This document shows, piece after piece, positions 40,879 through 40,999 of a stretch of 64,000 nucleotides of DNA. The notes under the pieces are model-generated. The model was not told the origin of the DNA, made no database searches, and worked only from the letters and a program-made list of their open reading frames with translations. Position numbers and translations under genes: made by a program. The stretch is taken from positions 62,001 to 126,000 of the forward strand of contig NZ_WLZY01000008.1 of the NCBI RefSeq assembly GCF_010122465.1. Reading direction: 5' to 3'. Within the stretch, counting starts at the first letter, position 1; the number at the start of each line of letters is the position of its first letter. Source of the stretch: Phytoactinopolyspora mesophila (lineage in GTDB: Bacteria > Actinomycetota > Actinomycetes > Jiangellales > Jiangellaceae).

Positions 40879-40947
40879 GTGGCTGAGGTCCGTTGGTATA
40901 CGCGCTTTACGCAGGCTCCGGGTGGAGCCGCGGACAGCGCACCCTGA
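40879..40947 (+). CDS. aromatic amino-acid leader peptide (Trp-Tyr-Phe)
   Basis: This 22-codon frame runs from GTG to TGA and encodes M-A-E-V-R-W-Y-T-R-F-T then a Gln/Pro/Gly/Ala-rich tail. Trp (codon 6), Tyr (7) and Phe (10) sit together, one for each end product of the pathway begun by the enzyme encoded 131 bp downstream. It precedes a strong terminator hairpin. This is the layout of ribosome-mediated attenuation, where stalling at scarce aromatic codons prevents termination. The peptide is far too short for routine gene calling. Confidence 0.78.
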   Translation: MAEVRWYTRFTQAPGGAADSAP

Positions 40948-40999
40948 CCAACCGCCCCACCCGGAGCCAGCACAGGCAGAGACCTCGGTCTCTGCCTTT
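40914..40999 (+). promoter_or_regulatory. transcription attenuator of the DAHP synthase gene
   Basis: The terminator is an 11-bp perfect stem (40974-40984 with 40987-40997) with a minimal loop and a short T run. Upstream, GGCTCCGGGT (40914-40923) can pair either with GGAGCC just after it (40924-40929) or, over 10 bp, with ACCCGGAGCC (40959-40968). That gives alternative structures next to the terminator. The first strand lies inside the leader peptide just after its aromatic codons, where a stalled ribosome would mask it. Confidence 0.72.

Follow-up and report, generated by a model that had tools for sequence, protein, structure and literature searches.

The class I DAHP synthase gene of Phytoactinopolyspora mesophila is preceded by a short translatable leader with clustered Trp, Tyr and Phe codons, followed by two hairpins; the frame, codons, promoter element, hairpins and spacings are conserved at related loci. 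This element is very likely a regulatory leader of the DAHP synthase gene, and it probably works as a ribosome-mediated, leaderless attenuator of the kind described as AroR. We see about even odds that P. mesophila responds to each of the three amino acids. Throughout, the window is the whole stretch of DNA analyzed (64,000 nucleotides), and coordinates refer to it.

The controlled gene (41078 through 42163, forward strand) encodes a class I enzyme of the aroFGH type, as the original prediction had proposed (Pfam PF00793, E = 2.6e-88; NCBIfam TIGR00034, E = 1.5e-149). In the host genome this is the only class I DAHP synthase, accompanied by a single class II enzyme, and no Trp/Tyr/Phe leader was seen upstream of the class II gene (C2). 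Elsewhere in the genome (C15), a short frame (MYASTHGSWWRAD; L191) lies just 5' of a 666-residue chorismate-binding gene with a TANNNT motif 8 nt before its ATG; it is a probable Trp leader of a second anthranilate-synthase-like gene. The gene that follows the DAHP synthase (42259 through 43710, forward strand) encodes a fusion of a GntR DNA-binding domain (PF00392) with a sugar-type solute-binding domain (PF01547), apparently a binding protein converted into a regulator.

The leader peptide MAEVRWYTRFTQAPGGAADSAP is encoded on the forward strand at 40879 through 40947, has orthologs in relatives, and comprises 22 codons between a GTG start and a TGA stop (GTG GCT GAG GTC CGT TGG TAT ACG CGC TTT ACG CAG GCT CCG GGT GGA ... 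TGA). Rereading the sequence confirmed Trp, Tyr and Phe at codons 6, 7 and 10; the corresponding TGG (40894), TAT (40897) and TTT (40906) together span 40894 through 40908. Only three short frames on both strands of the 64 kb bring W, Y and F together inside a span of five codons; of these, the frame at 40879 alone is accompanied by a long hairpin. A −10 element, TACAGT (40866 through 40871), lies 7 nt before the GTG, so that the transcription start is expected at or beside the start codon. In all 80 actinobacterial leaders collected here a TANNNT motif ends 6 to 8 nt ahead of a start codon (3.9 expected from shuffles), and leader translation is therefore probably leaderless throughout. The leaderless start suspected earlier is thus probable, and the promoter has turned out better than was guessed. 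Scans of the locus with sigma-70 and terminator consensuses found neither promoter nor terminator, their criteria being too stringent for a GC-rich, leaderless element of this sort; the terminator scan, for example, required five T in eight positions.

Folding and alignment define the RNA elements around the frame. Within it lies R (GGCTCCGGGTGG; 40914 through 40925), identified by folding and by family and multifamily alignments, which pairs over 12 bp with S (CCACCCGGAGCC; 40957 through 40968), located after the leader stop and supported by folding and by compensatory changes across families; we call the R:S helix hairpin A. The Trp and Tyr codons lie 20 and 17 nt upstream of R. Hairpin B (40974 through 40997), found by folding and alignment, is terminator-like: its 10-bp stem (40974 through 40983 with 40988 through 40997; AGGCAGAGAC-CTCG-GTCTCTGCCT) closes a CTCG loop and has TTCGTCGTT directly 3'. 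It is a conserved hairpin with a TTTCGTC tail and a short U tract, unmatched by the scan needing five T in eight. Beyond it are a small hairpin, M (CGTC..GACG; 41000 through 41013), and a second sequence complementary to S, R' (CGGCCCGGGTT; 41017 through 41027), which was assigned by the S-R' pairing test described below. The folding energy of the leader stretch lies 4.6 SD below that of dinucleotide shuffles. RNAalifold, applied to 33 aligned loci, returns both A and B, supported by compensatory changes, plus M after B. A and B stand side by side in the minimum-energy fold; neither excludes the other. The pairing originally proposed is hence real and longer than the 10 bp assigned to it, but it is not an alternative to the terminator, whose hairpin is present with a stem of 10 rather than 11 bp. 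Rfam models searched against the window and 14 loci gave no relevant leader, riboswitch or T-box match.

Conservation was assessed in 20 orthologous family loci including the window, of which one is masked by N, leaving 19 readable. All 19 have the leader peptide, R, S and B, with hardly any variation in the promoter element (TATAGT/TACAGT), in the block GGCTCCGGGTGGAGCC, in CCACCCGGAGCC or in the terminator. The motif RWYxRF is kept within the genus (three of three readable relatives) and in one sister genus, so the loss of frame or aromatic codons that would have spoken against the leader is not seen in close relatives. In most sister genera, Arg replaces Trp (14 of the 19 readable loci; most read RRYxYF and two RRSxYF), and Trp sensing is therefore not general in the family.

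The leader extends well beyond this family. A class-level sample of 395 genomes contained class I genes in 86, with full-length matches in 84. Outside the family, an aromatic leader precedes 34 of 34 genes in groups f3, f4, f36, f37, f45, f46 and f47 and in genus g43 of f26; two genes of another f26 genus (g110) have a weak aromatic leader (RFYG). Named genomes with such a leader include Streptomyces sp. 150FB, Catellatospora, Glycomyces, Mycobacterium, Gordonia, Rhodococcus, Nocardia, Amycolatopsis, Pseudonocardia, Micromonospora and Kribbella. The 28 sampled class I genes that lack one belong nearly all to family f17 (L021, L111, L112, L114, L118, L121 through L124 and others), where several genes are preceded by a short frame ending EFWEEDLPGL, perhaps the tail of another gene. 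W, Y and F occur together in 68 of the 80 actinobacterial leaders (in three of these, Trp occurs solely downstream of the aromatic cluster, inside the reading of R), Y and F only in 11, and W and Y only in one. Judged by codon content, Actinobacteria usually have the composite Trp/Tyr/Phe reading, although it was lost in sister genera of the window's family. At the 14 family loci with Arg for Trp, the control by three amino acids envisaged in the original prediction is reduced to Tyr and Phe. Dense aromatic leaders were also seen before proteobacterial and Anaerolineae DAHP synthase genes (L064, L069, L082, L088, L092, L093 and L102), for example FYFWYYGFPMPLAEEG in Xanthomonas and SYFWYFSYDSSLAAGG in Bradyrhizobium.

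Codon choice and spacing carry further signs of function. The rare codons TAT and TTT, kept in the window's leader, are used almost exclusively in the 80 leaders (TAT 94, TAC 8; TTT 80, TTC 15), as opposed to 49 adjacent DAHP synthase genes (TAT 1, TAC 255; TTT 1, TTC 351); the leader counts come from related loci, so P values overstate independence, but the contrast is still extreme. This near-exclusive use suggests selection for slow decoding. The last aromatic codon starts exactly 8 nt before R in 28 of the 33 aligned loci, and the first lies mostly 17 to 20 nt from R; S is never more than 7 nt from B (0 to 7 nt), while the distances from R to the stop (7 to 31 nt) and from the stop to S (5 to 23 nt) vary widely across the same loci. 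A separation of ∼8 nt places a helix at the ribosomal mRNA entry, and frameshift spacers measure 5 to 9 nt. A ribosome positioned at any of the aromatic codons would thus leave A intact.

These features suggest the following sequence of events. Transcription would start at the GTG, with a ribosome following the polymerase. When Trp-, Tyr- or Phe-tRNA is short, the ribosome would wait at codon 6, 7 or 10; as all three codons lie upstream of R, hairpin A could form during the wait. With ample tRNAs the ribosome would traverse R and keep A open until it leaves, and RNA polymerase would stop at B. Translation of the leader, termination at B and its relief by A are all predicted from sequence. Since A and B have no bases in common, the route from one to the other is most likely steric: A, sitting 0 to 7 nt from the foot of B, may hinder the lowest pairs of B from closing in the RNA polymerase exit channel. 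We put this step forward tentatively, as one possibility that falls short of even odds. Counting against the scheme as a whole are the short U tract, the missing B of Nocardia/Pseudonocardia-type leaders and the Trp-free aromatic clusters at 14 family loci.

The original prediction assumed a textbook trp-type attenuator instead, with mutually exclusive antiterminator and terminator. The order of parts fits such a design, and proteobacterial DAHP synthase leaders do show it, having the order R-S-R' and a classical terminator (an S:R' hairpin with a T run) opposed to R:S. To evaluate it, transcripts of the window and its relatives were folded up to the U tract with a ribosome placed at each codon. 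In almost all lineages folded, B forms with a probability of ∼1 wherever the ribosome is placed, and in the one exception the value is 0.76 and unvarying; no upstream pairing that competes with B was found in any lineage folded with B, the Corynebacterium glutamicum fold included. An antiterminator sharing bases with B was also considered and rejected, since extending R:S into the foot of B requires bases that lie beneath the stalled ribosome. The switch by base-pair exclusion is therefore absent from these folds, and the textbook explanation, which fails for want of a competing pairing, is quite improbable. The element that does alternate in folding is S, which pairs either with R or with R' on the 3' side of the terminator; such a second partner for S occurs in many lineages. 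Across 42 groups, S pairs better with its own R' (mean −17.3 kcal/mol) than with a swapped one (−14.6 kcal/mol; P = 4e-6), given that the groups are only roughly independent and S is misplaced in a few; the window's S-R' pairing taken by itself is only suggestive, 8.5% of shuffles being equally good. R' cannot act on B because it is transcribed later. One alternative is that the pairing of S with R or R' sets the openness of the DAHP synthase ribosome-binding site. The retained S-R' complementarity is in keeping with such translational control, as are the Nocardia/Pseudonocardia-type leaders, in which R, S, R' and an S:R' hairpin are present but B and the U tract are not. Predicted openness of the site, however, shifts in no consistent direction (mean 0.42 with S hidden vs. 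0.45 with S free; 6 loci change one way, 13 the other and 58 little), so control of the site via S:R' was rejected on these data and a translational switch seems unlikely, if somewhat less so than the textbook design.

A more serious contender concerns what the attenuator senses rather than how it switches. It may effectively respond to Phe only, or to Phe and Tyr, with the Trp codon inherited or serving for tuning and giving no useful Trp response; we give this reading a substantial chance, though well under one-half. According to a review (PMC11802643), the homologous attenuator of C. glutamicum aroF, with its F-Y-F leader, does not respond to Tyr availability, a caution that not every aromatic codon need be read out. 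The Arg that stands in for Trp in the sister genera points the same way, as does the Phe that lies closest to R in almost every lineage. Against it, W is kept in most of the 80 leaders and in many families, adjoining Y or F and sometimes doubled (WYWRF). The Trp codons of E. coli trpL, moreover, lie at a distance from the antiterminator arm similar to that of the window's W and Y codons from R. Finally, B could be a constitutive terminator beside a chance frame or an unrelated small protein. The gene upstream of the leader is an amidase gene on the opposite strand (39383 through 40807), so a left-to-right terminator would have no upstream gene to end, and the frame, codons, promoter element and spacings recur before DAHP synthase in many families; this explanation is scarcely credible. 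Our preferred reading remains an AroR-type attenuator operated by the translating ribosome.

If correct, this reading would mean cumulative feedback by all three end products, exerted on the transcript where carbon enters the shikimate pathway; many aromatic-derived antibiotics come from these lineages. AroR would go from a single-species finding to a widespread form of control. How such an attenuator can work when no fold, that of C. glutamicum included, offers a competitor to the terminator is a testable question. The broadest version, an ancient actinobacteria-wide leaderless attenuator that reads the charging of three tRNAs through one peptide and acts sterically, without base-pair exclusion, while R' adds a further switch, is speculative and on balance we doubt that it holds in full.

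The window's leader shares its coding logic with the E. coli trpL and pheL attenuators, which differ in reporting one amino acid each and in having an antiterminator that shares bases with the terminator. Closer in taxonomy are the trp, ilv and leu leaders of Actinobacteria (Seliverstov et al. 2005, PMC1262725; for S. lividans, PMC8079986), likewise short, often leaderless and equipped with codons for the product amino acid and terminator hairpins, but serving other genes and other amino acids; the 2005 survey describes structures upstream of ileS and of the Trp, Cys and Leu/Ilv genes, and reports no conserved ones at the genes that make the remaining amino acids. Attenuators built on upstream frames have been predicted before Acholeplasma aroF (uORFC-13-1; PMC8632094) and, with Phe/Tyr codons, before shikimate genes (PMC6429828); these differ in taxon, in reading Phe or Phe/Tyr with Trp unmentioned, and in the structures described. 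The nearest relative is AroR, the Phe-Tyr-Phe attenuator of C. glutamicum aroF (Neshat et al. 2014), as summarized in PMC11802643, PMC11525245 and PMC4046766; according to the first of these, aroF transcription rises under Phe limitation. The papers found do not report how far AroR extends to other actinobacteria. We located the C. glutamicum genome via an aroF start within a primer printed in PMC7356990 and read its leader from the genome (L187): MFAARFYFMSGSGASPRQLAISCAT, with R CGGCTCCGG, S CCGGAGTCG and a terminator abutting S. Both leaders place an aromatic-codon cluster in a short frame directly 5' of a class I DAHP synthase gene, with an R:S hairpin that begins 8 nt downstream of the first base of the last aromatic codon and a terminator hairpin at once after it. 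AroR differs in lacking Trp, in its longer U tract and in the reported ineffectiveness of Tyr. Having the same layout, the window element belongs to this known kind, to which it adds Trp. Attenuation of a DAHP synthase gene is thus not new, and the Trp/Tyr/Phe form is an extended variant of AroR.
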